DNA of 64,000 nt, from positions 1 through 64,000 of the forward strand of contig JAQWAU010000003.1 of the NCBI GenBank assembly GCA_028707535.1. Reading direction: 5' to 3'. Made by a program: the position numbers and the translations under genes. Positions within the stretch are counted from its first letter, which is position 1, and each line of letters starts with the position of its first letter. This document shows positions 2,304 to 19,190 of the stretch, piece after piece. The stretch is from Heliobacteriaceae bacterium (lineage in GTDB: Bacteria > Bacillota > Desulfitobacteriia > Heliobacteriales > Heliobacteriaceae). The notes under the pieces are model-generated. The model was not told the DNA's origin. It did no database searches and saw only the letters and a program-made list of their open reading frames with translations.

Positions 2304-2981
2304 TTAGTCGTGGTCAGCTGATTTAAATTTCCACCCGTTGACAATCGAGGACATCGTGCCATCTTTTTCCAAGGCATCATGCCGGATGCACAAGTAAAAG
2401 TGGACACAGAAGAAAACGATAAACGCCCAAGCCATCAGGTGGTGGAAAAACCGGGTGTAAGCGATGCCGCCCAAAAGGGAGGACGCCCAGGTAAACCAAG
2501 TAAACAAAATGGAACCGGGATTAATCGACGCGTAAAGCACAAAACCGGTGATAATCATGAAGACACTGGCGAAGGCCAGAAACACAAAGTACGATAGTTC
2601 GGCCAAGGGGTTATGGCCCAAATACGGTTCTTCTTCTTTCTCAAAAAATAGATAGAACTTTACCGTATGCCAAAGTGATACCCAGTATTGTTTGGTCCAA
2701 GGCCGGAACCGGAAACGGGAATAAGCATTGCCGGCAATCCACCAGTAAATCCGGAACAAAAAGTTGAAAATAAAGATATAGGCAGCCACCATGTGCGTAT
2801 AAACTACATAACCCATCAGGAAGGATACGGTGCCGTCACCGGCGGTGTTTAGCGGGGAGGCAAACGGCCGGCCGATAAAGATCCCGGTGAGGAACAACAC
2901 GACAATACAGGCGGCATTAATCCAGTGGAAAAACCGGATGGGCAATTGCCAGACATAAGCCGGTGTGTGGGTTGTTTTCAT
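2304..2981 (-). CDS. hyaC: NiFe hydrogenase b-type cytochrome subunit (operon 1)
   Basis: Integral membrane dihaem cytochrome b that passes electrons from the periplasm-facing hydrogenase dimer to the quinone pool. It has 225 residues and four hydrophobic helices. Histidines suitable as haem ligands lie in IRFFHWINAACIVVL, near YTHMVAAYIFIFN, in FFHHLMAWAFIVFF and VHFYLCIRHD. It starts 12 bases after the large-subunit gene with a GGGGAG ribosome site. The paralogue at 15619-16296 has exactly the same length and aligns from the first residue. Confidence 0.92.
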   Translation of the reverse strand: MKTTHTPAYVWQLPIRFFHWINAACIVVLFLTGIFIGRPFASPLNTAGDGTVSFLMGYVVYTHMVAAYIFIFNFLFRIYWWIAGNAYSRFRFRPWTKQYWVSLWHTVKFYLFFEKEEEPYLGHNPLAELSYFVFLAFASVFMIITGFVLYASINPGSILFTWFTWASSLLGGIAYTRFFHHLMAWAFIVFFCVHFYLCIRHDALEKDGTMSSIVNGWKFKSADHD

Positions 2982-2993
2982 TGCCAGCTCCCC

Positions 2994-4709
2994 CTAACTC
3001 ATCACTTTGACCACGGCAACTTCTTGGTCTTGGGTGTCCATTAGGTGGACGGCACAGGCCATGCACGGGTCGAAGGAGTGGATGGTCCGCAGGATTTCCA
3101 ATGGTTGATTGGGATCAACCATTGGGGTGCCGGTCAGGCAAGCCTCATAAGGTCCTTGTTGGCCCTTGTGGTCATTGGGTGAAGCGTTCCAGGTCGTCGG
3201 AACAATGGCCGAGTAGTTGAAGGTTTTCTTGTTTTTAATGTGGATCCAATGACCAAGAGCACCACGGGGGGCTTCACAGATGCCGGCCCCTTTGGCCTCA
3301 GCCGGCCAAGTAGCGGGATCCCATTTCGATTGGTTAAAGGTTGCCTGGTCGCCGGATTTAATATTGGCAATCAGATCATTAAAGAACCGTTTGAGGTATT
3401 GGCCGGTGATCTTGGTTTCGATCCCCCGGGCGGCTGTGCGGCCAAGGGTGGAGAACAGAGCGGTTGCCGGCAGGTCCAGTTTTTTCAGCACCTGGTCAAC
3501 CCCATCTTTCCACTCCGGCTGATTTTTGGCGTAGCCGAGCAGGCAGCGGGCCAAGGGACCGACTTCCATGGAATGTCCCCGCCACCGGGGTGCTTTTGAC
3601 CAGGAGTATTTTTGATTGGTGTCCAGCTCCTGATATTCGCCCTTGGGACCGGTGTACTTAAATTTGGTTTGGCCTTCAGATGGGTGGAGGCCTTGCTGGC
3701 CGCCTTCATATTCGTACCAGGAGTGGTCGACAAATTCCAGGATTTGTTCGGGGTCTTTCGGATCACACTCCAGAACCTCTTGCAGGTTCTGGTTGAGGAT
3801 TACCCCGCGGGGGAACAGGAAGCTGTCCGGATTGCGGATATCGTCGGTCGGTAAGTCGCCGAAGGACAGGAAATTGCCCATTCCGCCGCCATAAGTGACA
3901 TCCTTGTAGAACGAAGCAATGGTCAACAGGTCCGGGATATAGACTTGTTCCACAAAATCGACAGCTTGGTCAATCAAACCGCTGATCAGGTTCAACCGTT
4001 CAATATTGATCGCATTATCGCCATCCATGACCAGGGAAGCGGGCACACCGCCAACCACGAAATTGGGGTGCGGGTTTTTCCCCCCGAAAATGGTGTGGAT
4101 TTTTACCACTTCTTTTTGCCAGCTTAGGGCCTCCAGATAATGGGCAACAGCCATTAAGTTGCCTTCCGGCGGCAGTTTATAGCCGGGGTGGCCCCAGTAA
4201 CCGTTGGCGAAAATGCCGAGCTGGCCTGATTCGACAAAAGTCTTCAGCCTAGCCTGGGTGTCTTTAAAGTAACCCGGGCTGGATTTGGGCCACCGCGGAG
4301 AGATGGTTTGGGCCAGTTCGGCGGTTGCTTGGGGATCTGCTTTTAGCGCACTGACCACATCTACCCAGTCGAGGGCATGCAGGTGGTAAAAATGCACCGT
4401 GTGGTCCTGTAAATACTGGGCACATAACATAATGTTCCGGATGAGGTTGGCGTTTTTGGGAATCCGGATATTCAAGGCGTCCTCTACCGCCCGGATACTG
4501 GCAAGCGCGTGGGTGGTAGTACAAACACCGCAAATCCGCTGGACAAAGGCCCAGACATCCCGGGGATCCCGGTCTTTAACAATTAACTCCAACCCCCGGA
4601 CCATGGTTCCGCTGCTCCAGGCGTTAATGATTTGGTTGTTCTCGACTTGGGCCTCAACCCGCAGGTGGCCTTCAATCCGGGTGATGGGATCAATGACGAT
4701 TTTTGGCAT
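2994..4709 (-). CDS. hyaB: NiFe uptake hydrogenase large subunit (operon 1)
   Basis: Catalytic subunit of a group 1 membrane-bound uptake hydrogenase (571 aa). The nickel ligands are present: L1 motif RICGVCTTTHALASI near residue 62 and C-terminal L2 motif DPCMACAVH, followed by a 16-residue extension that the maturation protease should remove. The N-terminus MPKIVIDPITRIEGHLR is typical. Its start overlaps the small-subunit stop by one base (TAATG), so translation is coupled and 1:1 expression is expected. It oxidises H2, or evolves it depending on redox partners. The paralogue at 16311-18026 is the same length. Confidence 0.96.
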   Translation of the reverse strand: MPKIVIDPITRIEGHLRVEAQVENNQIINAWSSGTMVRGLELIVKDRDPRDVWAFVQRICGVCTTTHALASIRAVEDALNIRIPKNANLIRNIMLCAQYLQDHTVHFYHLHALDWVDVVSALKADPQATAELAQTISPRWPKSSPGYFKDTQARLKTFVESGQLGIFANGYWGHPGYKLPPEGNLMAVAHYLEALSWQKEVVKIHTIFGGKNPHPNFVVGGVPASLVMDGDNAINIERLNLISGLIDQAVDFVEQVYIPDLLTIASFYKDVTYGGGMGNFLSFGDLPTDDIRNPDSFLFPRGVILNQNLQEVLECDPKDPEQILEFVDHSWYEYEGGQQGLHPSEGQTKFKYTGPKGEYQELDTNQKYSWSKAPRWRGHSMEVGPLARCLLGYAKNQPEWKDGVDQVLKKLDLPATALFSTLGRTAARGIETKITGQYLKRFFNDLIANIKSGDQATFNQSKWDPATWPAEAKGAGICEAPRGALGHWIHIKNKKTFNYSAIVPTTWNASPNDHKGQQGPYEACLTGTPMVDPNQPLEILRTIHSFDPCMACAVHLMDTQDQEVAVVKVMS

Positions 4710-5803
4710 TATCCGTTACCTCCTTTCTGTTCCGATTTTTTCTCTTTGCCTTTAATGACGGTGGTAGCGGCTGTGTGAACAGCGATACCACCCACGGTAA
4801 CGGCGGTGGCGGCCAAGCCGATCTGATCGGCGTTCCACCCGATCTTCATGCCGGGCATGTCGGCCAAGTGGGTATAAAAGGGACCATTATCCCAAAAGTT
4901 TTCTTCGGAACAGCCAATACAGGGGTGGCCGGACTGAATGGGATAGGATGTGCCATTGTTCCACCGGATGGTTGAACAGGAGTTGAAAGTGGTAGGTCCT
5001 TTGCAGCCGAGTTTATAGAGGCACCAGCCTTGTTTGGCCCCTTCGTCGTCGAATTTCTCGGCAAACATGCCGGCATCATAGTAGGCCCGGCGGTTACATT
5101 TGTCGTGGATCCGGTGGTCGTAAAAGGCTTTGGGCCGGCCGGCAAAATCAAGTTCAGGCAGCTTATCGAAAGTTAGATAATGAACAATCACGCCGGCCAT
5201 AACCTCGGCGATGGGCGGGCAACCGGGAACATTAATTACCGGCTTGCCTTTGACGAGTTGGTCAACCGTCTTGGCTCCGGTGGGGTTGGGGTTGGCGGCG
5301 GGTAAACCGCCATTGGCGGCACAGCTTCCCCAGGCGATCACTGCAGCACAGTCTTTGGCGGCTTCGGCTAAAAGTTTGGTTGCCGGTTTGCCACCGATGG
5401 TGCAATACTGACCGTTTTCCCCGGCGGGGATGGAGCCCTCGACACAAAGGATATATTTGCCTTTGTTTTCGGTCATCGCTTTGAGTTTGGCTTCCTCCGC
5501 CTGCAATCCGGCGGCGGCCTGCAATGTCTCGTGATAATCCAGGGAAATCAGGTCAAAAATAACATCTGCTAAAATGGGGTGGCTGGTGCGCAAGAAAGAT
5601 TCGCTGCAGCCGGTGCATTCTTGGAAATGAAGCCAGATGACCGGTGGACGGGGCTTCGTTTCCAAAGCGGCAGCGATTTGGGGGACTGCCGTGGACTCAA
5701 GACCAATCGCGGCGGCCATAAAGGCGCAGAATTGGAGAAAGTCCCGGCGACTCACTTTCCGGCGGTTAAACAGGTCTAGAACTGTTTTTTCCTGTTGGCG
5801 CAT
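4709..5803 (-). CDS. hyaA: NiFe uptake hydrogenase small subunit (operon 1), Tat-exported
   Basis: Electron-transfer subunit with three iron-sulfur clusters (364 aa). It has a twin-arginine leader (SRRDFLQFCAFMAAA, residues 18-32) and a C-terminal membrane anchor (LAATAVTVGGIAVHTAATT), so the mature dimer should face outside. The proximal-cluster motif is ECTGCSESF: a glycine occupies the position that is a supernumerary cysteine in oxygen-tolerant enzymes, predicting a standard oxygen-sensitive [4Fe-4S] cluster. First gene of the operon; ribosome site AAGGAGGGAG. An extended -10 (TGTTATAAT) lies about 80 bases upstream. Confidence 0.95.
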   Translation of the reverse strand: MRQQEKTVLDLFNRRKVSRRDFLQFCAFMAAAIGLESTAVPQIAAALETKPRPPVIWLHFQECTGCSESFLRTSHPILADVIFDLISLDYHETLQAAAGLQAEEAKLKAMTENKGKYILCVEGSIPAGENGQYCTIGGKPATKLLAEAAKDCAAVIAWGSCAANGGLPAANPNPTGAKTVDQLVKGKPVINVPGCPPIAEVMAGVIVHYLTFDKLPELDFAGRPKAFYDHRIHDKCNRRAYYDAGMFAEKFDDEGAKQGWCLYKLGCKGPTTFNSCSTIRWNNGTSYPIQSGHPCIGCSEENFWDNGPFYTHLADMPGMKIGWNADQIGLAATAVTVGGIAVHTAATTVIKGKEKKSEQKGGNG

Positions 5804-5888: not shown

Positions 5889-6017
5889 TGGTATAAATAG
5901 TTTAAAGGGTTTTCGAACAATTTAGATAAATACAAAGGTCTTTCCGCTGACAAGTTTTCATTTTACAAAAAGGATTCTGACAAGTAACGTCGAATTTTAA
6001 ACTATAACAAATAAATT

Positions 6018-6127
6018 GCTCCGAGCCTTGTTTCCTAAAGGGGTATCCCAAGGGAATTTGGCCACCATCACCTAGATGGTCACGGTTTGGTTGGAAACGG
6101 CTAAGCCGCCCGTATTTGGAAAGGAGC
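6018..6127 (+). promoter_or_regulatory. Moco/Tuco riboswitch A
   Basis: The sequence shows the ordered conserved blocks of the molybdenum-cofactor RNA motif: CTCCGAGCC at 6019, TTCCTAAAG, GGCCACC, GGTTGGAAACGG, AAGCCGCCC, and TTTGGAAAGGAG closing at 6126. GCTCC (6018-6022) pairs with GGAGC (6123-6127) as the P1 stem. Three further copies sit on the other strand nearby. A strong terminator follows at 6180-6225, so ligand binding probably ends transcription before the substrate-binding-protein gene. Recognition is by motif; a covariance search was not run. Whether Mo- or W-cofactor is sensed cannot be decided here. Confidence 0.8.
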
Positions 6128-6179
6128 CTTTCTGTTGTGGAAACACAAACGTGTGGTCTTTGTAGCATATTTACTTAAC

Positions 6180-6225
6180 AAAGCCTGCGGAAAGGGTGAT
6201 CTTTTCCGGAGGCTTTTTATTTTTG
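6180..6225 (+). terminator. Riboswitch-linked terminator ahead of the substrate-binding protein
   Basis: A long stem, AAGCCTGCGGAAA pairing with TTTTCCGGAGGCTT, is followed by TTTTTATTTTT. It lies between riboswitch A and the gene at 6303, with no gene between. This is the expected expression platform for transcription attenuation. Confidence 0.85.
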
Positions 6226-6302: not shown

Positions 6303-7403
6303 GTGCGGACAAAGCAATATTTCAAACGTTATGGCCGGCAAAGTGTGGGTTTGTTGCTGGCGGTGACGGTCTTCATGCTGTTTGCGGCGGGGTGTGGTCA
6401 GCAACCAGCGGCTACCCCGCCGGCGGATTCGGGGGTGCAAACCGTAACCGATATGGCCGGCCGGCAAGTAACCCTCCCGGCGAAGATTACCAAGGCTTAC
6501 GGAACCAGTCCCATTCAGACGATCCTGATTTATTGCCTGGCGCCGGAGAAATTAGCCGGTTTGAACAGTGCCCCAACGGATTTGGAGAAACGGATTATGT
6601 TGCCGCAATGTCAAAACCTGCCGGTTTTGGGGGGCTGGTTCGGCCAAGGGAATACCGGGAACATGGAAGAGATCCTGAGGGTCAAACCGGATGTGATTGT
6701 TTGCGGACATACCGGTCAGGAGATGGCTGACCAATTGCAGCAGCAGTTGAATATTCCCGTTGTTTGGGTGGATGACACCATCGAAAAAAATGAAGAAGTT
6801 GTAAACTTCGTGGGGAAAGTTCTGGGGGCGGAGCAACAGGCCGGCAAAATGAACGCTTATTTCCAGAAAACCCAAGAGCGCATTAAGGCCAATTTGCCCC
6901 GGATTGCGGAAGGGAAAAAGGTGAGCGTGTATTATGCCGAAGGACCACAGGGGCTACAAACAGATCCCAAGGGCTCTAAACATGCCGAGTTGCTGGAGAT
7001 CTTAGGGGCGGAGAACATAGCCGAAGTAGCGATCAAGCCCGGATTCGGCCGGAGCGAAGTTTCCATGGAACAGGTCCTTAAGTGGAATCCGGAGGTGATC
7101 ATCGCCGGGGAATTGGAATTTTACCAACAGATCTTAAATGATCAAAAGTGGAAAAACATCAAGGCTGTCCAGGATAACCGGGTTTACTTAGTCCCCCGGG
7201 CACCCTTTAACTGGTTTGACCGGCCGCCGGGAGTAAACCGGATTATCGGCTTAGCTTGGACGGGGCAGATCCTATATCCCAACATTTATTCCTTCGATAT
7301 TAACCAGGAAACTAAGGAATTTTACAAAATTTATTACCACTATGACTTGAAGGATAATGAAGTCACGGAGGTCTTAACCTGTGGCGGGGTCGCAAAAATG
7401 TAG
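6303..7403 (+). CDS. ABC transporter substrate-binding lipoprotein (BtuF/MolA-like, probable molybdate/tungstate)
   Basis: A 366-residue secreted lipoprotein with signal VGLLLAVTVFMLFAAGC (lipobox FAAGC near residue 31) and a periplasmic-binding domain of the vitamin B12/siderophore/MolA class (VQTVTDMAGRQVTLP, then GNMEEILRVKPDVIV). It is the binding partner expected for the FecCD permease and ATPase encoded on the opposite strand at 12827-14637. The leader carries a Moco riboswitch and terminator, which points to molybdate or tungstate rather than iron or cobalamin; in Haemophilus, MolA of the same fold binds molybdate. Start is GTG with AAAGG upstream. Substrate is inferred from regulation only. 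Confidence 0.82.
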   Translation: MRTKQYFKRYGRQSVGLLLAVTVFMLFAAGCGQQPAATPPADSGVQTVTDMAGRQVTLPAKITKAYGTSPIQTILIYCLAPEKLAGLNSAPTDLEKRIMLPQCQNLPVLGGWFGQGNTGNMEEILRVKPDVIVCGHTGQEMADQLQQQLNIPVVWVDDTIEKNEEVVNFVGKVLGAEQQAGKMNAYFQKTQERIKANLPRIAEGKKVSVYYAEGPQGLQTDPKGSKHAELLEILGAENIAEVAIKPGFGRSEVSMEQVLKWNPEVIIAGELEFYQQILNDQKWKNIKAVQDNRVYLVPRAPFNWFDRPPGVNRIIGLAWTGQILYPNIYSFDINQETKEFYKIYYHYDLKDNEVTEVLTCGGVAKM

Positions 7404-7466: not shown

Positions 7467-8990
7467 TTAAGCCAACAGGTCTTTCCGGCGGTAAACGGTT
7501 TTGCCCCCGGAAAGACTGGTTGCTACCGTTTGCAGGATTGTGGGCAGGTGGATGTGCCGGGAAAAGAAAACCGGCTTTTCTTCGGTAATGGCATGTTCTT
7601 TAATTAGCCACATGGCGGTATGGGAAATGTGTTGCGTCAAGATGACCAAAACGTCACACCGGTTAAGCATTCTCGCCCATTCCGGTTTACGGGCATCACT
7701 GCAGAGCAACCGGCAAGGGTATGTTTTGGGGTCGGCAGGATTGTTTCGCACCCCGCCAAAGATGCCTACCGTCAAGCCGTGCAGGGTGGTGAGGGCTACT
7801 TCCCGGTCGGAGGTTGCCGGTAGCCGACTACCGGCGGTGGCGACTTCCTGTAACACTGCCGGTGGTGGGGGAGCAGGTTGCAGTTCTTTGATTTGGCTCC
7901 TTAGTTCACGATTTAAAGCTTTTAGGTCGCGAATTTTCTGGGCTTGGTCTGACGGAGGAGTAACCGCTGGGAACCGCCGGTCTTTCTGCAGACGCCGGTT
8001 TTCTTGGTTGGCCTGGGAGAGTTGGCGCCCCAGGCCGGTCAGGTGGTCTTGTTGCCGGGCAATGGTTTTTTGCAACCGGGTGATGGTGTTCCGGGTTTCG
8101 GCCAATTCGGTTTTCAAGCGGCGGGAATAGGCCATAAACCGGGAGCCGGTATCGAATGGGGAGATCAGGTTAAAAAGTGCTCTATTGCGGATGGGTTCAA
8201 GATTTGGTACCACGGGAAAACCGAGCAGAACAAAGCTCAACATTGTCCGGCCGAGCATTCTTTCCAGTTTGGCCACATTTAATTTTTGATAATAAAGACC
8301 TGGAATCAGCAGTAACTGCACCGTGAAAGAGACGATAGCATGGAAAAGAAGCTCCAGTTTTGACGGCGGAAAGGTGGCAATGAAGCAATCCCGGACCTTG
8401 GCGATTAGTTTCAAGTATCGCTTTTTGGCTTTGCCCGCAGTGCCTGAACCGACTTTGGCCGTGGGGGAAGGAAGGTCCTGGGGGAGCATGTTCAGTACCT
8501 TAAGCACCTCGAGGAATTCCCCGAGATCCATTTCCGTGATGATTTGGGGCCAGTGAATGCTGAAATAGGCTCGACACCGGGACAAGAAGGCTTGTTGACT
8601 GCTCGCCCATAAGGCTTCTTGCCGGTGCCACTGGGCGGTGAATTCCTGTTGTTGGGCCCAGGTGCGGGTTATTGGAAACACTCCGGGATGGCCGACTACC
8701 GGTACCTCCGAAAAACCAATCTGGTAGCTCCGGGTTTCCCGGGGTGTACCGTTGTCGTCGGTGAACTTTAATTTGACGTGTGTAGCCGGCCGGGTAACCG
8801 CACAGCAGCTAATGGCCGGGATCGGATACAGTATTTTGCCAATTAACATCCGGGGGTCGTTTGGCGCCATCTCCCGGGCCGGTGGCGACGGCAGGGTTAA
8901 CTGCTGATTTTTTTGACAATAAGGACATTGCCGGGATACCACCGGTACTAACCGGAAATCCGGCATAAAGGCCAGTTGGGTTATTTCCAC
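7467..8990 (-). CDS. Coiled-coil protein with C-terminal DUF2325-like domain, under Moco riboswitch
   Basis: No experimentally characterised family was recognised for the whole 507-residue protein. Near residue 20 is a CPYCQKNQ zinc-binding pair; ISCCAVTRP follows near residue 58. Residues about 280-380 form a long charged coiled coil (ELAETRNTITRLQKTIARQQ and on). The last 90 residues resemble DUF2325: VGIFGGVRNNP, then CDVLVILTQHISHTAMWLIK. No signal peptide; probably cytoplasmic. The GTG start is 8 bases from a Shine-Dalgarno that is the 3' strand of Moco riboswitch B, so translation should fall when cofactor is plentiful. This suggests a role in Mo/W acquisition, handling or cofactor use, but the biochemical activity is unknown. 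Confidence 0.75.
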   Translation of the reverse strand: MEITQLAFMPDFRLVPVVSRQCPYCQKNQQLTLPSPPAREMAPNDPRMLIGKILYPIPAISCCAVTRPATHVKLKFTDDNGTPRETRSYQIGFSEVPVVGHPGVFPITRTWAQQQEFTAQWHRQEALWASSQQAFLSRCRAYFSIHWPQIITEMDLGEFLEVLKVLNMLPQDLPSPTAKVGSGTAGKAKKRYLKLIAKVRDCFIATFPPSKLELLFHAIVSFTVQLLLIPGLYYQKLNVAKLERMLGRTMLSFVLLGFPVVPNLEPIRNRALFNLISPFDTGSRFMAYSRRLKTELAETRNTITRLQKTIARQQDHLTGLGRQLSQANQENRRLQKDRRFPAVTPPSDQAQKIRDLKALNRELRSQIKELQPAPPPPAVLQEVATAGSRLPATSDREVALTTLHGLTVGIFGGVRNNPADPKTYPCRLLCSDARKPEWARMLNRCDVLVILTQHISHTAMWLIKEHAITEEKPVFFSRHIHLPTILQTVATSLSGGKTVYRRKDLLA

Positions 8991-8998
8991 TGGATGAC

Positions 8999-9109
8999 TC
9001 TCCTTTCCAAAAACGGGGGGCTGAACCGTTTCCCGTCCAACCCTGACCTGGCTTAAGCAGGTGGCCCAGACTTCATAGATGGTCTTCCTTAGAAGTAAGG
9101 GCTCGGAGA
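8999..9109 (-). promoter_or_regulatory. Moco/Tuco riboswitch B (internal, translational)
   Basis: On the minus strand: CTCCGAGCCC, TCTAAGG, GGGCCACC, GGTTGGACGGGAAACGG, CAGCCCCCCGT, TTTTGGAAAGGAG. It begins 16 bases after the fmdE-type gene and ends 8 bases before the GTG of the DUF2325-like gene. The closing strand GGAAAGGAG is also the ribosome site of that gene, so P1 formation should hide it. No terminator hairpin lies between aptamer and gene, unlike the other three copies. Confidence 0.78.
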
Positions 9110-9125
9110 TTGCTTATATTTAAAG

Positions 9126-10121
9126 TTAACTATGGGGACTGGTTTTCGGCAAGTCTGCCAGATAGGCAGCGGTCATGCCACAAACGTGGTCACAGAACCG
9201 GCGCCGTTCCGGTGATTCCCGGTTACCCAAGGTGGTGGTCAGTGTCCGGCAGTTCGTGGACCCGAAAAGCATTAGGAAGCTGCGCTTGAAAACTTCAACC
9301 GCTGATTCCGGATTGGTTTTCAGGAGGCCTAAGACTAATTCCCCGGCGGCAAAGGCAGCACAGGTTCCGCCACCGGTGGTGCCTCCCCGCCAAGCCGCCA
9401 ACATGGGGATTAGGCCCGGCAGGTTGGGAATAACCTTAAAGTCGGTCAAGGCCTGGATGACGGCTTGGCCGGCGTTTAGTCCCGCTTGGTGGTATGTTTG
9501 GGCTTTTTCACGGGCCAGAACCGAAATATCTTCCGGGTTTTGGTCTTCTGCTTTTCCGGCCGGCCGGTAATAGTCAGGTCCTACACAGCCCCGGCATAAA
9601 CAACGGTCACCGATCATTACTTCCCGTGCGTCGTTGATCCCCTCACCACAAACGGAACACATTACCCGGCGCACCGGCTTGCCTGGTAGATCTTCAGGGG
9701 CAATTGTCACCACTACTTCTTCCAGGCGAAGCAACTCTTCATCAGGAATAATCCGGTAAGCGTCGAGGTACGGGTTGGCGGAATCGGGACAATACTGCTT
9801 GGCCAGTTCCCGGGTGCCTTCCGGTACCCATACCCGGACTGCTTTCCGGGTGTTCAGGTCGACAAACGTAGCCGCCATTTTGCCGTAGTCAACGTGTTTC
9901 AAGGTGCGCCGGCCTAACTTACAACCGGTGACCGAGTGAATCGCATCGGTGGCACAGCGGTCAATTTCCACGTAGACAATCAGGTTGCGGTATTTTTTCG
10001 GTTCGGTAATCCCGAGCCAGCGCAAGGCGGCCATACTAATCCTGACCCCCAGGATTTGGCCGGCACAGAGATGGCCGTGGTAAGCGACCGCTTCCTCCAG
10101 CAAAACCTCAAAACTTTTCAT
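9126..10121 (-). CDS. FmdE-family protein fused to a C_GCAxxG_C_C-like redox domain
   Basis: The N-terminal half (331 aa total) is FmdE: AYHGHLCAGQILGVR near residue 13, with the conserved His and Cys, then a zinc-finger pair VMCSVCGEGI and CLCRGCVGP near residues 178-205. FmdE is known as an accessory protein encoded with molybdenum formylmethanofuran dehydrogenase and is common in anaerobes without that enzyme. The C-terminal 110 residues resemble the putative redox-active C_GCAxxG_C_C family: GGTTGGGTCAAF, FGSTNCRTL, and CDHVCG. The usual first cysteine of that domain (NCxxA) is replaced by alanine (NAGQA). The second ATG (10121) has better spacing from GGAGG than the first (10124). Last gene before riboswitch B. 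Confidence 0.8.
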   Translation of the reverse strand: MKSFEVLLEEAVAYHGHLCAGQILGVRISMAALRWLGITEPKKYRNLIVYVEIDRCATDAIHSVTGCKLGRRTLKHVDYGKMAATFVDLNTRKAVRVWVPEGTRELAKQYCPDSANPYLDAYRIIPDEELLRLEEVVVTIAPEDLPGKPVRRVMCSVCGEGINDAREVMIGDRCLCRGCVGPDYYRPAGKAEDQNPEDISVLAREKAQTYHQAGLNAGQAVIQALTDFKVIPNLPGLIPMLAAWRGGTTGGGTCAAFAAGELVLGLLKTNPESAVEVFKRSFLMLFGSTNCRTLTTTLGNRESPERRRFCDHVCGMTAAYLADLPKTSPHS

Positions 10122-10135
10122 CATCAATCCTCCAG

Positions 10136-10885
10136 TTAAAGTGTCAGGCCTTTTCTGGCAATATTGACACAGCGGGCTGCCGGGCGAAAACTGCGGAACC
10201 CGCCGCCTTCGGCGAGGCAACGCCAAACAAGTTCGGGATTCTCGACAACCAATCCCCCCAGGATATCCACCCCGAAATCAAACATTACCGGGCTTAGGGG
10301 GGTGCTGGGACCGAGCAAGACGGTCACAGCCTTGCGCGATAATTCCAAGAGCCGGGGCATCGTTTTATTGATTAGGGTCGAAGCGGTAATGAGCACGACA
10401 TCTTGTTCCGGTAATAAGTATTCCAGGGCGGTGTCCGGCAGGTCACCATCGTGCGGTTGCCGCTCAAAAACGGTGAGGATGGTATTTTGCCGCAGTTGTT
10501 CCATGTGGGGGAAATGACCGATTATCCCCACTTTTTTCCCCCGGGAAAGGTCCAGGATAAAATCGAAGGCACTGATATCCGGTAGTTGGGTCAGTCCTTT
10601 GCCGCTTAACTGTTCGACTGCCTTGGGGGTGTTTAAGCAGGAGTTGATTGCCGCCAGGCCGATGGCCGCCTCGGTGAAGTTCCAAGACTTGATGAGGCCG
10701 GCAAGGTCTCTAAGTTCTCGCCCCTGCAGGGCGCCGGCCAATGTTGTTTCCTTTCCCGAACGGGGAACCGAAAGGGCCAGACCCAAGGTTTCCCCTTGCA
10801 CGGCGGTCCACCATAAGCCGGCCAGCACCCTTTGGGCTTTGCCCGGGGTGGTGGTTTCCAGCAGATGATCATACAAGTCCCACAA
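10136..10885 (-). CDS. DUF364 (putative heavy-metal-chelation) protein, copy 2
   Basis: A 249-residue DUF364 protein. The C-terminal Rossmann-like domain is clear: KVGIIGHFPHMEQL near residue 117, DVVLITASTLINKTM, TVLLGPSTPLSP, and the end motif GGLVVENPELVWRCLAEGGG. The N-terminal part is a shorter DUF4213-like region. A structure of a family member led to the suggestion of heavy-metal chelation, but no reaction is proven. TTG start with AAGGAG nine bases upstream. It is paired with a second, longer DUF364 gene 13 bases upstream; the two are diverged, so they may form a heterodimer or act on different intermediates (inference). Confidence 0.85.
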   Translation of the reverse strand: MWDLYDHLLETTTPGKAQRVLAGLWWTAVQGETLGLALSVPRSGKETTLAGALQGRELRDLAGLIKSWNFTEAAIGLAAINSCLNTPKAVEQLSGKGLTQLPDISAFDFILDLSRGKKVGIIGHFPHMEQLRQNTILTVFERQPHDGDLPDTALEYLLPEQDVVLITASTLINKTMPRLLELSRKAVTVLLGPSTPLSPVMFDFGVDILGGLVVENPELVWRCLAEGGGFRSFRPAARCVNIARKGLTL

Positions 10886-10898
10886 GTGCGTTCACTCC

Positions 10899-11735
10899 TT
10901 AATATGCCGGTTCGATTACGGTGCGTTCTACTGATTTGCCGAACAAGTGGTAACCTGATCCCCCTTCGCTTAGTACCGCCAAGGTCTCATCCGGTTTGGT
11001 TACTTCGATGCCTCCCAAACGCGTTACTCCCCGCTGAAACAAGGGTCCCGGCAACATACCGGCGGTTGGGCCGACGACCACCGCACCGGCCTCCGGCTTT
11101 TTCATCGCGAGAATTGTTTCCAGGGAGTCATTGAGCAGGGTAGTGCCGGTAATAATCAGCAGATCGGTGGCGCCGACAACCTCTGCCGCTTGTTCCGGCG
11201 GAACATAATACGGCAGCTCGTCAGGCTTTAAGGTCCGGGGATCCAATTCGAGGATCGCGAAAGGCTTACCCCGCTTTTTTAAAAGGCGGATGTAGGGAAC
11301 CAAAGCACCGACTACCGTGACTTGCGCTTGTTCCGGGATGGGAAAGTCATCCAGGGGGTCGCGGCCGTACCGGATTATGTAGTCCGGCGGACTAATCTGC
11401 CGGCAAGTCGTGGATAAGGCGTTAATTACGGCAATGGCCAAGGCTTTCTTGATCGGGGAACCTTGGCCTGATTCCGCCAGCAAACTGGCGACACTTTTGC
11501 CCCGTAAGGCCCCGGGATTGGGCATTACCCGGGCTGAGCTAGGGCAGCATACTGCTTCCGGGATTGACTTAATCGGGGTAAAACACATGCCGCCGGTTTG
11601 GTTGCTGAGCTTAACCCCGGTAAAAAACAAACCGATTACGGCCTGTTCCAGCCGCAAATCCGCGTAATCTTTGCCCAGCGATTCCTGCAGACCGGCAAGT
11701 ACTGCCGCAATAATGCCCGGTTTTACATCACCCAC
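10899..11735 (-). CDS. DUF364 (putative heavy-metal-chelation) protein, copy 1
   Basis: A 278-residue protein with DUF4213-like N-terminus and DUF364 C-terminus (VTVVGALVPYIRLLKKRG near 135, DLLIITGTTLLNDSL, VVVGPTAGMLPGPLFQRG, GGIEVTKPDETLAVLSEGG). Unlike copy 2 it carries a cysteine group at GGMCFTPIK and EAVCCPSS, which could bind metal. GTG start with AGGTGGTG upstream. It sits in the riboswitch-controlled operon between a methyltransferase and copy 2. Its placement after a metal-type ABC transporter supports a role in handling the imported oxyanion or metal, but this is inference. Confidence 0.87.
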   Translation of the reverse strand: MGDVKPGIIAAVLAGLQESLGKDYADLRLEQAVIGLFFTGVKLSNQTGGMCFTPIKSIPEAVCCPSSARVMPNPGALRGKSVASLLAESGQGSPIKKALAIAVINALSTTCRQISPPDYIIRYGRDPLDDFPIPEQAQVTVVGALVPYIRLLKKRGKPFAILELDPRTLKPDELPYYVPPEQAAEVVGATDLLIITGTTLLNDSLETILAMKKPEAGAVVVGPTAGMLPGPLFQRGVTRLGGIEVTKPDETLAVLSEGGSGYHLFGKSVERTVIEPAY

Positions 11736-11756: not shown

Positions 11757-12791
11757 TTAACAGCAGCGCCGGGTAAGGTCTGCCGCCGTTTTTTTCGTTG
11801 CCAGACAAAGCTTGGAGACGCCAAAGATGCTGGGGATATCCGTAATCACCGGCGGGGTAAACCCGGCTTGTTGCAGCAAGCCGGCAAACCGGTCGGGGTG
11901 GCAAAGCGGGTGGCCCAAACTTTGCAAGGATTTAGTCAGCTCGTTTAAACCATTAGTCATTATACAACCGGGGCTGCAAAACCAGTGGTTTAAAACCAGC
12001 AATCCACCCGGTCGCAGTGCCTGGTAGAACCGGGCAAAAATACCGGGTAAGTCCTTACGGAATTGATATAAAACATGGGAAGCAAGCAAAAGATCGGCGC
12101 CTTGTCCCCAATCAGCAGTCTTTAAGTCTCCGGCGACGGTATGTAAACGGGAAGTTAACCCAAATTCCGCGATGTTTTGCCGGGTAAAGGGGATGAATCC
12201 GGGTTGGTCGAAAATTCTGCCGGTAAGCTCCGGGTGGACTTCACAAAGGGCAATCGCGTACAACCCGTGGCCACCGCTTAAGTCCAGCAACGATTTGGCT
12301 TTGGCAAAGCCCGGCCAAGCAATGACCGCATTGGTTACCGCCTGGACTTCACCCCGCAGGGCCTGCTGGTTCAAGGCCCGGAAGTTCTCCTGGTTTGGAC
12401 CGGGCGATAAACCGGCAAACTGGTCTTGGGTTAAGATTTCCCCTAATTGCCGCCACGACGGGTCTTCACCCAGGTTTTTCAGATAGTCTCCTTGATAGGA
12501 CGGGTTGCTGCGGACGAAAAAAGTGGCGGCTAATTGGGTATTCGCAAATAAACCTTCGTTACTGTCGAGCAGACCCAATTCAACTAATGCTCGCAGATAG
12601 CTGCGGATCAACATGCCGTTTATTTTCAGGCCGGTCGTGATTGTGTCCAATGAACTTGGTCCATTGCTGGCCAACCAATCAAACAGGTTAAGGTCAACGG
12701 CGGATTTTACGACCTGAAAGGCTTTAAAGCCTTCTAAAATCCGGTCGATCATCACCACACTGCCCGGAACTTGCCGGTTCATGAGAAACAT
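11757..12791 (-). CDS. SAM-dependent methyltransferase (O-methyltransferase-like) in Mo/W operon
   Basis: A 344-residue class I methyltransferase with an N-terminal winged-helix dimerisation region (FDWLASNGPSSLDTITTGL) and the SAM motif SLLDLSGGHGLYAIALCEV near residue 178, followed by GRIFDQPGFI and ASHVLYQFRKDLP. The layout resembles the acetylserotonin/CrtF O-methyltransferase group, though the substrate is unknown. The extreme C-terminus is RRCC, an unusual vicinal-cysteine tail that could bind metal. ATG start with GGGAGGAG upstream. Its position between the ABC transporter ATPase and DUF364 genes suggests modification of a metal-binding or cofactor molecule (inference). Confidence 0.82.
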   Translation of the reverse strand: MFLMNRQVPGSVVMIDRILEGFKAFQVVKSAVDLNLFDWLASNGPSSLDTITTGLKINGMLIRSYLRALVELGLLDSNEGLFANTQLAATFFVRSNPSYQGDYLKNLGEDPSWRQLGEILTQDQFAGLSPGPNQENFRALNQQALRGEVQAVTNAVIAWPGFAKAKSLLDLSGGHGLYAIALCEVHPELTGRIFDQPGFIPFTRQNIAEFGLTSRLHTVAGDLKTADWGQGADLLLASHVLYQFRKDLPGIFARFYQALRPGGLLVLNHWFCSPGCIMTNGLNELTKSLQSLGHPLCHPDRFAGLLQQAGFTPPVITDIPSIFGVSKLCLATKKTAADLTRRCC

Positions 12792-12826: not shown

Positions 12827-13618
12827 TTAAGCAAGTAAGGGGACACAGACCTTGATTTCCTGCCGGGGTTTTTCCCTGATCTGGGCGGAAACCACCTTGA
12901 TCCTGGCGGCATAAAGGTCGCTGAGGCTGGTGTCGGTAACGATTTCGTCCGGGTTGCCGATGGCGAGAATTTTACCTCCTTTCATGATGGCCACTTTGTT
13001 GCAGGCTAGGAAAGCATGGTTGGGAAAATGGGAAGTCATAATAATGGCGAATTCGGCCCGGGCAAGCTCGTTGATAATCTTCAGGATGCGGGTCTGGTTG
13101 CCGTAGTCCAGGCTGGCGGTTGGTTCGTCCATAATCAGCCAGGCTGACTGTTGGGCCAAGGCCCGGGCGATCAACACCAGTTGCCGCTCACCACCGCTGA
13201 TCTCGCTAAACGGCTTTTTGGCTAAGTGGGAGATGCCGACATCGGCCAGGGCGGCCTGGGCAATCTCCTTGTCCCGGGGTGTTGGGGTGGCGATGGCCTT
13301 TAAGTGGGGGTTGCGGCCCATCAAGACCATATCCAGGACTTCATAGGGAAAAACCGAGGTGGTGGCCTGGGGCACATAAGCGACCGCTCTGGCCAATTCT
13401 TTGGGGGTCAAGCTGGTACTGTCCCGGCCACCGATCCGGATCTTGCCTTGTTTCATTTTGTTGATCCCCAGCAGACAGCGTAATAAAGTAGTTTTCCCGG
13501 TGCCGTTAGGGCCCAAAAGGCACAAAACATCCCCTTTAGCCACGGAAAAAGAGATCCCGTTTAAGAGGTTGGGCTGACCGGGATAATTAAAACACAAACT
13601 TTCGACGACGAAACTCAT
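12827..13618 (-). CDS. ABC transporter ATP-binding protein (FepC/BtuD-type; probable molybdate/tungstate)
   Basis: A 263-residue ATPase with Walker A GPNGTGKTTLLRC, Q-loop YVPQATT, signature ISGGERQLV, Walker B WLIMDEPTA and the switch histidine (TSHFPNH). It energises the FecCD permease whose stop overlaps its ATG (ATGA). Start at 13618 was preferred over the ATG six bases upstream because the ribosome site GAAGGG abuts the latter. Family members import haem, siderophores, B12 or molybdate; the shared Moco riboswitches favour Mo/W. Confidence 0.9.
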   Translation of the reverse strand: MSFVVESLCFNYPGQPNLLNGISFSVAKGDVLCLLGPNGTGKTTLLRCLLGINKMKQGKIRIGGRDSTSLTPKELARAVAYVPQATTSVFPYEVLDMVLMGRNPHLKAIATPTPRDKEIAQAALADVGISHLAKKPFSEISGGERQLVLIARALAQQSAWLIMDEPTASLDYGNQTRILKIINELARAEFAIIMTSHFPNHAFLACNKVAIMKGGKILAIGNPDEIVTDTSLSDLYAARIKVVSAQIREKPRQEIKVCVPLLA

Positions 13619-14637
13619 GTCCATCCCTTCTTTACTTTTGATAACAAAAAGATAAAAAACGGGGCGCCGATGATGGCGGTAAGAATCCCTAAGGGAATCT
13701 CTACACTGCTGGCGTTGCGGCAAATGTTGTCAACGAGCAGTAAATATCCGCTACCCAATAAAAGCGAGGCCGGCAGCAGCACCTGGAAGTTGGGACCGAC
13801 CAACATGCGGGCCATATGGGGCACCAAAAGGCCGACCCACCCGATGATCCCGCTGATACTGACCGCCGCCGCCGTCATCAGGGTGGCACAAAGGACAATG
13901 ATTGCCCGGATCCGGGTGATGTTGACCCCGAGGGCGATTGCTTCCTCTTCACCGATGGACATAATATTAACTTGCCAGCGAATGAGGGACAAGACGATGA
14001 TGGAAAGGACAATCGGGACCAAGACGAACTGGACATCGGTGGTACCGACTTTGTTTAAACCGCCCATCAACCAGAAGGTAATAGCCGGCAAGGTATCCAA
14101 GGGATCAGCCAGGTATTTGACGATGGATAGCAAAGCTTGAAAAAGCGCGGAAATGACCATCCCGCCCAAGACCAGGACAATAATGGAGTTGCGAGCAAAA
14201 AGCCGGCTGATCAGATAAGAGGCGCCGACTGCCACTAAGGCGAAAATGAAGGCCATTAACTGGACCGCCAACCAGGGATAATGCAGGAGCATTCCTAAGG
14301 CGGCGCCAAAGCCGGCCCCGGCCGAGACACCCAAAATGGCGGGGGAGACCAGGGGATTTTTAAACAAACTTTGGTAGGCGGCCCCGGATACGGACAAGGC
14401 GCCACCGACCAAGATCGCCGCAATAATCCGGGGAAACCGCACTTGTAACACAACGGTCTCCATGGTATCGGTCCAGGTTTTCGGCACCGCAAAAAACTTG
14501 GCGGCCAAGATGGCAATTACCGTTTGAGGTGAAATCGGGTAACGCCCCAGGAGAAAAGACACGAAGAAAATTACAATCAAAATCACCAGAAGCACGAATA
14601 TTTTGAAATGGACTCCGGTAATTCGAGATAGGAACAT
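13615..14637 (-). CDS. ABC transporter permease, FecCD/BtuC family (probable molybdate/tungstate)
   Basis: A 340-residue membrane permease with about ten helices and typical FecCD motifs: FPRIIAAILVGGALSVSGAA near residue 75, NPLVSPAILGVSAGAGFGAA, a cytoplasmic coupling region IGEEEAIALGV, and GWVGLLVPHMARMLVG. The ATG at 14637 follows GGGAG. It is the first gene of the riboswitch-controlled operon, preceded by two tandem Moco riboswitches and two terminators. The cognate binding protein is encoded apart, on the plus strand at 6303. Confidence 0.92.
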   Translation of the reverse strand: MFLSRITGVHFKIFVLLVILIVIFFVSFLLGRYPISPQTVIAILAAKFFAVPKTWTDTMETVVLQVRFPRIIAAILVGGALSVSGAAYQSLFKNPLVSPAILGVSAGAGFGAALGMLLHYPWLAVQLMAFIFALVAVGASYLISRLFARNSIIVLVLGGMVISALFQALLSIVKYLADPLDTLPAITFWLMGGLNKVGTTDVQFVLVPIVLSIIVLSLIRWQVNIMSIGEEEAIALGVNITRIRAIIVLCATLMTAAAVSISGIIGWVGLLVPHMARMLVGPNFQVLLPASLLLGSGYLLLVDNICRNASSVEIPLGILTAIIGAPFFIFLLSKVKKGWT

Positions 14638-14668
14638 TTTTTTTACTCCCTGTTGAAATCGCCTGTTC

Positions 14669-14706
14669 ACGAAAAGAAAAACCCAAGAAGGGATACCTTC
14701 TCGGGT
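14669..14706 (-). terminator. Terminator after Moco riboswitch C
   Basis: On the minus strand ACCCGAGAAGG pairs with CCTTCTTGGGT, followed by TTTTTCTTTT. It lies between riboswitch C and the permease start, so it is the expected off-switch of that aptamer. Confidence 0.85.
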
Positions 14707-14730
14707 CAACAGACCGAAAAATTGCGGTAT

Positions 14731-14845
14731 CCTCCTTTCCAAACACGGGGGGCTAGCTGGTTTCCCGGCCAACCGGACCGGCGGATAAAGCCGGTGGCCC
14801 CAGTTTCATAAAAACTAAGTTTCCTTAGAAACAGGGGCTCGGAGG
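14731..14845 (-). promoter_or_regulatory. Moco/Tuco riboswitch C (promoter-distal of a tandem pair)
   Basis: Minus-strand blocks in order: CTCCGAGCCCC, TTTCTAAGGAAAC, GGGGCCACC, a GGCTTTATCCGCC hairpin, GGTTGGCCGGGAAACC, TAGCCCCCCGT, TTTGGAAAGGAG. The conserved blocks match copies A, B and D while the variable stems differ, showing compensatory variation. A terminator follows at 14669-14706. Confidence 0.8.
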
Positions 14846-14860
14846 GAATATGCGGTTTAA

Positions 14861-14910
14861 AAACAAAAATGGTTTTGAAAAGGTGATCGTTACCCTTCGC
14901 AAAACCATTA
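14861..14910 (-). terminator. Terminator between the tandem Moco riboswitches
   Basis: Minus strand: AATGGTTTTG with following AGGG pairs with CCTTTTCAAAACCATT, then TTTTTGTTTTT. Upstream bases GATCGTT (in 14921-14930) can pair with AACGATC (14884-14890) inside this stem, giving a plausible antiterminator. This makes riboswitch D an independent attenuator ahead of C. Confidence 0.8.
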
Positions 14911-14929
14911 GTTAACCATGGAACGATCA

Positions 14930-15046
14930 TCTCCTTTCCAAAGTGGGGGGCTTGCCGGTTTCCCGGGCAAACCCAGACCTGCCGCGACGGCAGGTGGCCT
15001 GACCGTCATAAGGTGAAACACCTTTTAGACGAGAAAGGCTCGGAGA
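14930..15046 (-). promoter_or_regulatory. Moco/Tuco riboswitch D (promoter-proximal of a tandem pair)
   Basis: Minus-strand blocks: CTCCGAGCC, TCTAAAAGG, GGCCACC, hairpin CTGCCGTCGCGGCAG, GGGTTTGCCCGGGAAACCGG, AAGCCCCCC, CTTTGGAAAGGAG. Its own terminator lies at 14861-14910 before riboswitch C begins. Two complete aptamer-terminator units in series should give tighter or more digital repression of the transporter operon. Confidence 0.8.
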
Positions 15047-15068
15047 TTTATGTAAACATCTTGCCTAT

Positions 15069-15111: not shown

Positions 15112-15504
15112 TTACTTTTCTCCGGCTATCCGGTCTTGTTCAAGCCGGATCAGCAGGCCGGTAAAGTGTTTATCAAAAGTATCATCCACATGGAGAAGGG
15201 CGTCTTGGTGGAAAAGCTGAAATTGACGCAGCATTTCCCGGCCTTCGGGGGTGAGGTTGGTGCCCCGTTCCCGGCTCCCCGGGTGACGTTCCACCAAAGG
15301 TATTTTGAGCCGTTTTTCGGTAGCCGTAATTTTGCCCCAAGCGGCCCGGTAGGACATCCCGAGAACCGCAGCCGCCTGGTTGATCGAACCGGTCTGGTCG
15401 ATCGCCATGAACAGCCGGGCCCGACCTAGACCGAAAACTACTTCCCCATCGGCTTCGAGCCAGATTTTTGATTTTACTTTTAATTGTGGCAAACCGGAGG
15501 CCAT
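15112..15504 (-). CDS. ModE-type DNA-binding regulator lacking the molybdate-binding domain
   Basis: A 130-residue winged-helix protein matching the N-terminal domain of ModE: WLEADGEVVFGLGRARLF, DQTGSINQAAAVLGMSYRAA, AWGKITATEKRL, HPGSRERGTNLTPEG. Full-length ModE carries two Mop domains that bind molybdate; here the protein ends after the helical dimerisation segment. It may sense nothing itself, may bind metal differently, or may need a partner. The ATG at 15504 has AAAGGGG upstream. It lies just ahead of the riboswitch-controlled operon, so that operon is its most likely target. It has its own promoter at 15589-15617. Confidence 0.85.
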   Translation of the reverse strand: MASGLPQLKVKSKIWLEADGEVVFGLGRARLFMAIDQTGSINQAAAVLGMSYRAAWGKITATEKRLKIPLVERHPGSRERGTNLTPEGREMLRQFQLFHQDALLHVDDTFDKHFTGLLIRLEQDRIAGEK

Positions 15505-15532
15505 GGAATTCCCCTTTCCCGATGCAAACGGC

Positions 15533-15578
15533 AAAAAAATGCGGGCGGGTGTACCGCCGGGGTGAACCGGCGGGCCGC
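15533..15578 (-). terminator. Leader hairpin with T-run ahead of the ModE-like gene
   Basis: On the minus strand CCGCCGG (15573-15567) pairs with CCGGCGG (15560-15554), with outer GCGG/CCGC pairing, and a TTTTTTT run follows at 15539-15533. Lying between the promoter and the gene, it looks like an attenuator or partial terminator. No known aptamer was recognised around it. Confidence 0.45.
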
Positions 15579-15588
15579 ACGTAATTCT

Positions 15589-15617
15589 ATTATACCACAT
15601 CGTTTCGATTCGTCATC
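15589..15617 (-). promoter_or_regulatory. Promoter of the ModE-like gene
   Basis: On the minus strand a perfect TATAAT (15594-15589) is preceded, after 17 bases, by GATGAC. It starts immediately after the stop of the cytochrome gene at 15619, so the regulator need not rely on the hydrogenase transcript. Confidence 0.55.
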
Positions 15618-15618
15618 T

Positions 15619-16296
15619 TCAGGTCCTGTTTAAGTCCTTATACTTCCAGCCGGTAATGATCGAGGACATGGTACCATCTTTGGTGAGCAGGTCGTGGCGG
15701 ATGCACAAGTAAAGGTGAATGGTGACGAAAACAACAAAAGCCCAAGCAAACAGGTGGTGAAAGTAGCGGGCATAGGGCATGCCGCCTAAGGCGGTAATTA
15801 CCCAGGTGAACGAGGCGAACAGGGCGCCGTCGGGGACGATGGCGGCGTAAAGGGCAAAACCGGTGACAATCATGAACAGGGTGGCGAACCAGAGAAAAAA
15901 GAAATAGGAGAGTTCCGCGAGGGGATTGTGGCCGGGAAAGTCCTCTTCTTCTTTTTCCAGCAGCAGGTAGAAACGGACGGTACGCCAAAGTGAGGCCCAA
16001 AATTGCCGGGTCCAAGGCTGGTACCGGAACCGGGAGTAAGCATTACCGGCAATCCACCAGTAAATACGGAACAGAAAGTTGAAGATAAAAATGTAGGCGG
16101 CAACCATATGGATATACACCATGTTGCCCATGACAAAGGAGAATGTGGCATCCCCGGCGGTGTTGACCGGGCCGAAGAAAGGCCGGGCGATATAAATGCC
16201 GGTGAAAAACAGTACCCCGATTGCCAAGGCGTTTACCCAGTGGTAGAGGCGGATCGGCAATTGCCAGATATAGACCATTTCGTGGGTAACTTTCAC
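15619..16296 (-). CDS. hyaC: NiFe hydrogenase b-type cytochrome subunit (operon 2)
   Basis: A 225-residue membrane cytochrome b, paralogous to the one at 2304-2981 (IWQLPIRLYHWVNALAIGVL, FFTGIYIARPFFG, YARYFHHLFAWAFVVFVTIH, YLCIRHDLLTKDGTMSSI). It anchors hydrogenase 2 and passes electrons to quinone. The GTG at 16296 was chosen over the GTG nine bases upstream: AGGAGG overlaps the upstream codon, spacing to 16296 is eight, and the resulting product aligns with its paralogue from residue 1 and has the same length. Confidence 0.92.
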   Translation of the reverse strand: MKVTHEMVYIWQLPIRLYHWVNALAIGVLFFTGIYIARPFFGPVNTAGDATFSFVMGNMVYIHMVAAYIFIFNFLFRIYWWIAGNAYSRFRYQPWTRQFWASLWRTVRFYLLLEKEEEDFPGHNPLAELSYFFFLWFATLFMIVTGFALYAAIVPDGALFASFTWVITALGGMPYARYFHHLFAWAFVVFVTIHLYLCIRHDLLTKDGTMSSIITGWKYKDLNRT

Positions 16297-16310
16297 GGTG
16301 GCCACCTCCT

Positions 16311-18026: not shown

Positions 18027-18029
18027 ACT

Positions 18030-19115: not shown

Positions 19116-19190
19116 ACAGACCATCCTCCTTTACCAATCTTTTGTGGTTATGTTTGCCGCAAACCGGCTTTTTTACACAGTGAGAACACC

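Follow-up and report, generated by a model that had tools for sequence, protein, structure and literature searches.

What does a Moco riboswitch do between two genes of an operon, directly ahead of a reading frame for an uncharacterised protein, when two riboswitches of the same family already stand at the operon's start? Few clues to the functions of uncharacterised genes are as good as a riboswitch. The window (the whole 64-kb stretch of DNA that was analysed) contains four RF01055 aptamers, here called A, B, C and D, whose scores of 75-91 bits compare with a curated threshold of 36. Our answer is that B is probably a Moco-sensing translational OFF switch within the operon, and that its target probably belongs to a Mo/W accessory set. 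On the minus strand the order runs from C and D through the FecCD, ATPase, O-methyltransferase, two DUF364 and FmdE-fusion genes to B, the DUF2325-like gene and a terminator. The gaps between the operon genes are short, and B is placed after the sixth gene.

15112..15600, minus strand: ModE-like HTH gene directly upstream of C (Pfam HTH_1; TIGR00637 ModE below cut-off)
14915..15057, minus strand: Moco riboswitch C, transcriptional, in tandem with D (RF01055, 74.6 bits)
14869..14908, minus strand: intrinsic terminator of riboswitch C, approximate coordinates (terminator scan)
14716..14856, minus strand: Moco riboswitch D, transcriptional (RF01055, 77.2 bits)
14680..14707, minus strand: intrinsic terminator of riboswitch D (terminator scan)
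13615..14772, minus strand: FecCD-type ABC permease; true start probably inside the ORF
12827..13723, minus strand: ABC transporter ATPase; start codon uncertain
11757..12791, minus strand: O-methyltransferase-family gene
10899..11735, minus strand: DUF4213/DUF364 gene, second copy
10136..10885, minus strand: DUF4213/DUF364 (putative heavy-metal chelation) gene
9126..10124, minus strand: FmdE + C_GCAxxG_C_C fusion gene (Pfam FmdE 109.4 bits, C_GCAxxG_C_C 28.2 bits)
8984..9120, minus strand: Moco riboswitch B (RF01055, P3-containing; cmscan 88.1 bits, E 3.7e-20)
7467..8990, minus strand: target gene, DUF2325-like, 507 aa
7420..7458, minus strand: 16-bp terminator hairpin between the convergent transcription units
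6303..7403, plus strand: FecB-like substrate-binding protein (Peripla_BP_2)
6007..6142, plus strand: Moco riboswitch A, transcriptional, of the convergent FecB-like gene (RF01055, 91.1 bits), with its terminator at about 6180-6215

The initial annotation had placed a translation-type riboswitch inside an operon already controlled at transcription. C and D, both with terminators, stand at the operon start as that description demands, and by sequence B appears to be of the translational kind. The FmdE fusion named there is also real, with Pfam matches to both parts. Two similar NiFe-hydrogenase sets (small subunit, large subunit and cytochrome b) flank the locus at 2304-5803 and 15619-19124, and a fluoride riboswitch (RF01734, 54 bits) lies at 54067-54008 on the minus strand of the window.

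Aptamer B fills the whole RF01055 model (1-135, all 135 positions), with 88.1 bits versus a gathering score of 36. Its cmscan alignment includes a P3 stem (ACCUG/CAGGU), and its P4 carries a GAAA tetraloop (GGGAAAC). Regulski et al. (2008, PMC2408646) associate P3 with Moco and not with Tuco. Across 32 aptamers the RF01055 stems have a covariation score of 0.632 versus 0.222 in shuffles, and the P1 core pairs hardly vary. The assembly (G000; 2.09 Mb in 100 contigs, 88% complete) holds 11 Moco RNAs, among which B has the second-best score; the 11 include two tandem pairs, C/D in the window and another on contig C78. No other aptamer in the comparison is more than 68% identical to B, which is thus not a fresh copy. 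A second operon-internal Moco-type RNA of this assembly (G000:C20:28052-28164; L009/L031) is P3-less, hence Tuco-type by Regulski's rule. It lies 6 nt past one [2Fe-2S]-type ORF and 39 nt before another, which leads into a formate-dehydrogenase-like gene, and no terminator was found after it.

B follows its upstream neighbour closely. From the TAA stop of the FmdE fusion (9128-9126) it is 5 nt to the Rfam-defined aptamer and 16 bases (9125-9110) to the first P1 base, T9109, so the distance of 16 bases reported earlier is exact when counted to P1. The claim that B has no terminator agrees with the terminator scan, which found no intrinsic terminator downstream of the aptamer. A terminator-like match at 9043-9018 is the P4 stem followed by CCCGTTTTTG, and was rejected because its T run (GTTTTTG) begins four bases past that stem. 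A consensus-based scan, of a kind that misses some promoters, found no sigma-70-like site with at least 8 of 12 matches on the same strand between 9700 and 9100. The FmdE gene and B are 5 nt apart, and sequence scans detected neither a promoter-like site nor a terminator before B; B and the DUF2325-like gene are likely cotranscribed with the FmdE gene.

The expression platform of B is found in the closing stem of the aptamer itself.

9105..9109, minus strand: P1 5′ strand UCUCC (sequence; pair probabilities 0.85-0.97)
8999..9003, minus strand: P1 3′ strand GGAGA, core of the Shine-Dalgarno sequence AAAGGAG (sequence, fold, Shine-Dalgarno spacing)
8988..8990, minus strand: GTG start codon of the DUF2325-like gene, 9 nt past GGAG

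The stem is formed by the pairs U9109-A8999, C9108-G9000, U9107-A9001, C9106-G9002 and C9105-G9003. In a plain RNA fold these pairs have probabilities of 0.85-0.97, opening of the Shine-Dalgarno strand costs about 4.3 kcal/mol, and P1 is predicted to be closed even without ligand. Between GGAG and the GTG at 8990 the spacing is 9 nt; measured from the last P1 base it is 8 nt, which matches the 8-base spacing of the initial annotation with P1 counted as GGAGA. As that annotation also proposed, the closing strand coincides with the ribosome-binding site: GGAGA at 9003-8999 holds the only Shine-Dalgarno sequence seen near this start codon, and AAGGAG at a spacing of 9 nt resembles those of other genes of the window. 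With the Shine-Dalgarno sequence of the next gene within P1 and no terminator found, the platform is translation-type. However, GGAAAGGAG is a conserved part of the aptamer, present also in the terminator-using A, C and D, so that an SD-like strand alone is expected and proves nothing. It is the start codon next to the P1 strand, unlike the SD-like strand, that is the unexpected feature of B. The GTG is also contained in a predicted 5-bp hairpin, CCAGU (8993-8989)/ACUGG (8976-8972) on the minus strand, which is independent of P1 and could by itself limit translation.

How rare this geometry is can be gauged from 147 Moco RNAs of same-class genomes, which were sorted by script. A terminator-like hairpin follows 115 of them. 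P1-RBS geometry, with a start codon and long ORF 5-13 nt past the P1 strand and without a terminator nearby, is present in 13, whereas 19 have neither. Outside the 13, such a start codon and ORF occur in only 2 of the 134 aptamers. The targets of the 13 are one 340-aa protein type in 11 cases, of which the one member checked against Pfam is MoCF_biosynth, a molybdopterin-binding domain, and DUF2325 in the other two (B, and L134 of genome G019, from another genus). Internal positions are commoner: 33 of the 147 follow a codirectional ORF at a distance below 60 nt, a count in which some ORFs may be spurious, and many of these lie between modC and modB and have a terminator. In genus g6 (L089, L096, L115, L161, L145, L163 and others), a Moco RNA and terminator come right after modC and before a modB-like gene. 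There the aptamers overlap the modC stop or lie within 40 nt of it, an arrangement that is repeated in many genomes and is a predicted operon-internal transcriptional Moco switch. Both properties, internal position and P1-RBS geometry, are combined in 3 of 147 cases, namely B and one copy each in G459 and G037. The position of B alone is therefore not novel; as judged from sequence, its arrangement is rare, with two precedents. Of the original interpretation as a whole, the translation-type B and the Mo/W candidacy of its target stand, and uniqueness does not, given E. coli moaA with its ribosome-binding site in P1 and the internal copies in G459 and G037.

The same observations bear on other accounts of B. 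It might control translation of a gene with a private promoter located within the FmdE gene, as an ordinary single-gene riboswitch would. The Moco RNAs of G017 and G019 do carry an 11-of-12 promoter-like site just upstream, but at B no site of at least 8 of 12 was found on this strand in 9700-9100, by a type of scan that misses some promoters, and merely 5 nt lie between the FmdE stop and the aptamer; we consider a private promoter unlikely. Action mainly on the RNA is a still less probable alternative, in which ligand would stabilise the 3′ operon mRNA, or Rho or RNases would shorten untranslated RNA, and the Shine-Dalgarno overlap would just reflect the conserved strand. The terminator-type aptamers A, C and D do indeed carry this same strand. 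Nonetheless, a start 5-13 nt past it, a long ORF and no nearby terminator come together in 13 of 147 RNAs, versus only 2 of 134 others with such a start and ORF, and no second Shine-Dalgarno sequence was seen for the DUF2325-like gene.

It is very hard to credit, finally, that B is a decaying or constitutively closed duplicate without regulatory effect. Copies do multiply in a genome with 11 Moco RNAs, and the predicted closure of P1 without ligand would suit a permanently shut switch; yet the score of B is second-highest of the 11 and its identity to the others compared is at most 68%, which indicates that the conserved core was kept while the rest diverged.

We return to B as a probable translational OFF switch. 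In E. coli moaA, the ribosome-binding site lies within P1 and Moco represses, and both structure mutations and Moco supply alter expression as expected (Regulski et al. 2008, PMC2408646). By analogy with moaA, the direction of control at B is most likely OFF. When Moco is plentiful, aptamer B would fold, P1 would close and GGAG would be hidden, and the DUF2325-like protein would not be made. When Moco is scarce, P1 would open and the protein would be made, besides the transcriptional relief at C and D. B would then act as an OFF switch on the translation of a single gene inside the operon and, since the operon start is switched independently by C and D, the DUF2325-like gene would stand under two Moco gates in series. 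A single ligand would thereby be read out in several ways at this transport locus, through two terminator switches acting on the operon, a third on the binding-protein gene and a translational switch for one gene.

The pairing of Moco RNA and DUF2325 recurs outside the window. DUF2325 genes (51 hits) were compared with Moco RNAs across 82 genomes of the class, and four genomes, namely G000 (that of the window), G017, G019 and G025, have such a gene downstream of a Moco RNA at a distance of up to about 1.1 kb. Counted as starts within 1.2 kb downstream, there are four against 0.022 expected; the three without the window give a nominal P of about 2e-6 if counted as independent. Because G017 and G019 belong to one genus, with DUF2325 proteins that are 82% identical, a more cautious tally is two lineages in addition to the window (three with it), for which P is about 2e-4, calculated by hand with the same Poisson mean. 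In G019 (L134/L257), 11 nt separate the P1 strand GAAAAGGAG of the Moco RNA from the downstream ATG of a DUF2325 gene (101 aa), and the pair is downstream of DUF364, methyltransferase and NTPase genes, with a divergent FecBCD set nearby. In G017 the order is Moco RNA, cysteine-rich-domain gene, DUF2325, and a second DUF2325 copy lies between a molybdopterin oxidoreductase gene and a NifH-like gene. In G025 it is Moco RNA, MoeA_N gene, DUF2325, Moco RNA, FmdE, FecB, FecCD, ATPase. The G017 and G019 RNAs are directly preceded by 11-of-12 promoter-like sites, so these two loci speak for the target but not for control from within an operon. Taken together, the links in these three genomes uphold the DUF2325-like protein as a good candidate for the Mo/W regulon.

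The Moco-linked proteins share more than the domain name. In their alignment H-x-x-M-W-x-x-K is invariant, and the [S/A]HxxMWxxK subfamily that we define by it scores 109-134 bits in profile A4, with ordinary DUF2325 proteins far lower, a gap that is partly built in because most subfamily members are rows of A4; the window protein (125.5 bits) is itself one of the nine rows. A Moco RNA lies within about 1.1 kb of 4 of 9 [S/A]HxxMW members in the class versus 0 of 26 ordinary DUF2325 loci, which were scanned with 1.5-kb flanks (Fisher P about 0.002, by hand; the caveat on the relatedness of G017 and G019 applies here as well). Neighbours of the FecBCD, FmdE or DUF364 type are common to the subfamily in two other lineages, and three further members adjoin molybdopterin or nitrogenase genes. 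The domain either stands alone or is joined to a Cys-rich, coiled-coil N-terminus.

In the target, which has the fused form, a CxxC...CC N-terminus is followed by a helical middle part, a coiled coil and, at the C-terminus, the DUF2325-like domain with [S/A]HxxMW. Its match to DUF2325 (PF10087) reaches 27.2 bits versus a gathering cut-off of 33.6 (E 4.5e-6), hence the label 'DUF2325-like'; short relatives clear the cut-off at 57-73 bits. With a long helix or coiled coil at about 282-339, the earlier description as a DUF2325-like coiled-coil protein was a fair one. C22, C25, C62 and C63 are invariant and are the only hint at a metal site. Full-length relatives, at 30-36% identity, come from Heliobacterium chlorum, H. 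mobile, two more genomes of the family and Anaerobacillus arseniciselenatis, and no Moco RNA was found near them. The closest are those of the two Heliobacterium species (G007, G008; 32-33% identity), whose genomes yielded no Moco RNA anywhere, so that the pairing of RNA and DUF2325 is not universal. In both species the gene lies amid modABC-like genes, a QRPTase-type (ModD-like) gene, a molybdopterin oxidoreductase gene and nifH. Adjacent to it, in divergent orientation, is a glycine riboswitch (L026 8913-9013, L027 8619-8718) that apparently serves a sodium:alanine symporter-like gene. Other relatives lack the DUF2325 domain (about 303 aa) or lie beside recombinase-like genes (L018 and L019 in G005 and G001; L022 and L023 in G040; L055 in G172), which suggests a wider, partly mobile family. 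A defence or phage origin of the target was rejected, with no PADLOC or PHROG match and no relative in viral contigs.

Structure prediction and fold search did not identify the function of the target. For the full-length model (pLDDT 73, pTM 0.48), no PDB entry matched at E ≤ 0.001. The domain model (pLDDT 79.5, pTM 0.75) returned only generic alpha/beta rows (Rossmann- or PTS-IIB-like, Z 5.7-8.0), which were set aside as uninformative, and Foldseek gave nothing at E ≤ 0.001. No sequence relative with a solved structure was found for the DUF2325 domain, and the whole protein had three weak coiled-coil-type matches.

We infer a Mo/W role for the target from its company only: FecBCD transport, FmdE, DUF364, molybdoenzymes and nitrogenase. 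It would belong to a group of accessory proteins under Moco regulation (FecBCD-type transporter, FmdE, DUF364, methyltransferase) that supplies or handles Mo/W, and it is probably a cytoplasmic chaperone, sensor or adaptor. More broadly, there is perhaps an even chance that the [S/A]HxxMWxxK subfamily is a dedicated Moco-regulon effector that works with FecBCD, FmdE and DUF364 in Mo/W acquisition or delivery and has its own translational switch in at least two genera. A known sensor here points at an uncharacterised family in three lineages, twice via its stem as the gene's ribosome-binding site, and the function of the subfamily becomes directly testable under Mo/W limitation. The new part is this recurrent connection; hiding a ribosome-binding site in P1 is already known. 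In the part of the literature covered, we found neither a link between DUF2325 and Moco nor a published operon-internal Moco RNA.

Like the E. coli moaABCDE riboswitch (PMC2408646), B is a P3-containing aptamer with the ribosome-binding site in P1, and the OFF control of translation found there is proposed for B. The E. coli RNA, however, leads a biosynthesis operon and has moaA as its target, whereas B lies between two genes and has a DUF2325 target. Syntrophomonas wolfei has at least 15 Moco RNAs, the highest number at the time (Regulski et al. 2008, PMC2408646). Its serial Moco RNAs and the tandem Moco riboswitches (PMC9481103) resemble this locus in having several RNAs, some with terminators, and C/D is such a tandem. 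Those RNAs sit serially before the first gene without an ORF between them; in contrast, B is translation-type and comes after the sixth gene. Campylobacter jejuni Cj1384, in the katA cluster, shares with the target a DUF2325 domain of unknown function, but it is a 104-aa oxidative-stress gene product regulated by PerR and RacRS, with no Moco RNA reported (PMC9426514). Other counterparts come from the survey of the class. In G459 and G037, a Moco RNA lies 16-20 nt past a codirectional DUF1847 gene and its P1 strand is the ribosome-binding site 8-9 nt before an ATG, as at B, although the target is the 340-aa gene of the molybdopterin-binding-domain type. In G019, the DUF2325 gene is stand-alone (101 aa) and its RNA has its own promoter-like site, unlike B; as at B, the P1 strand serves as the ribosome-binding site of a DUF2325 gene with DUF364, methyltransferase and FecBCD neighbours.
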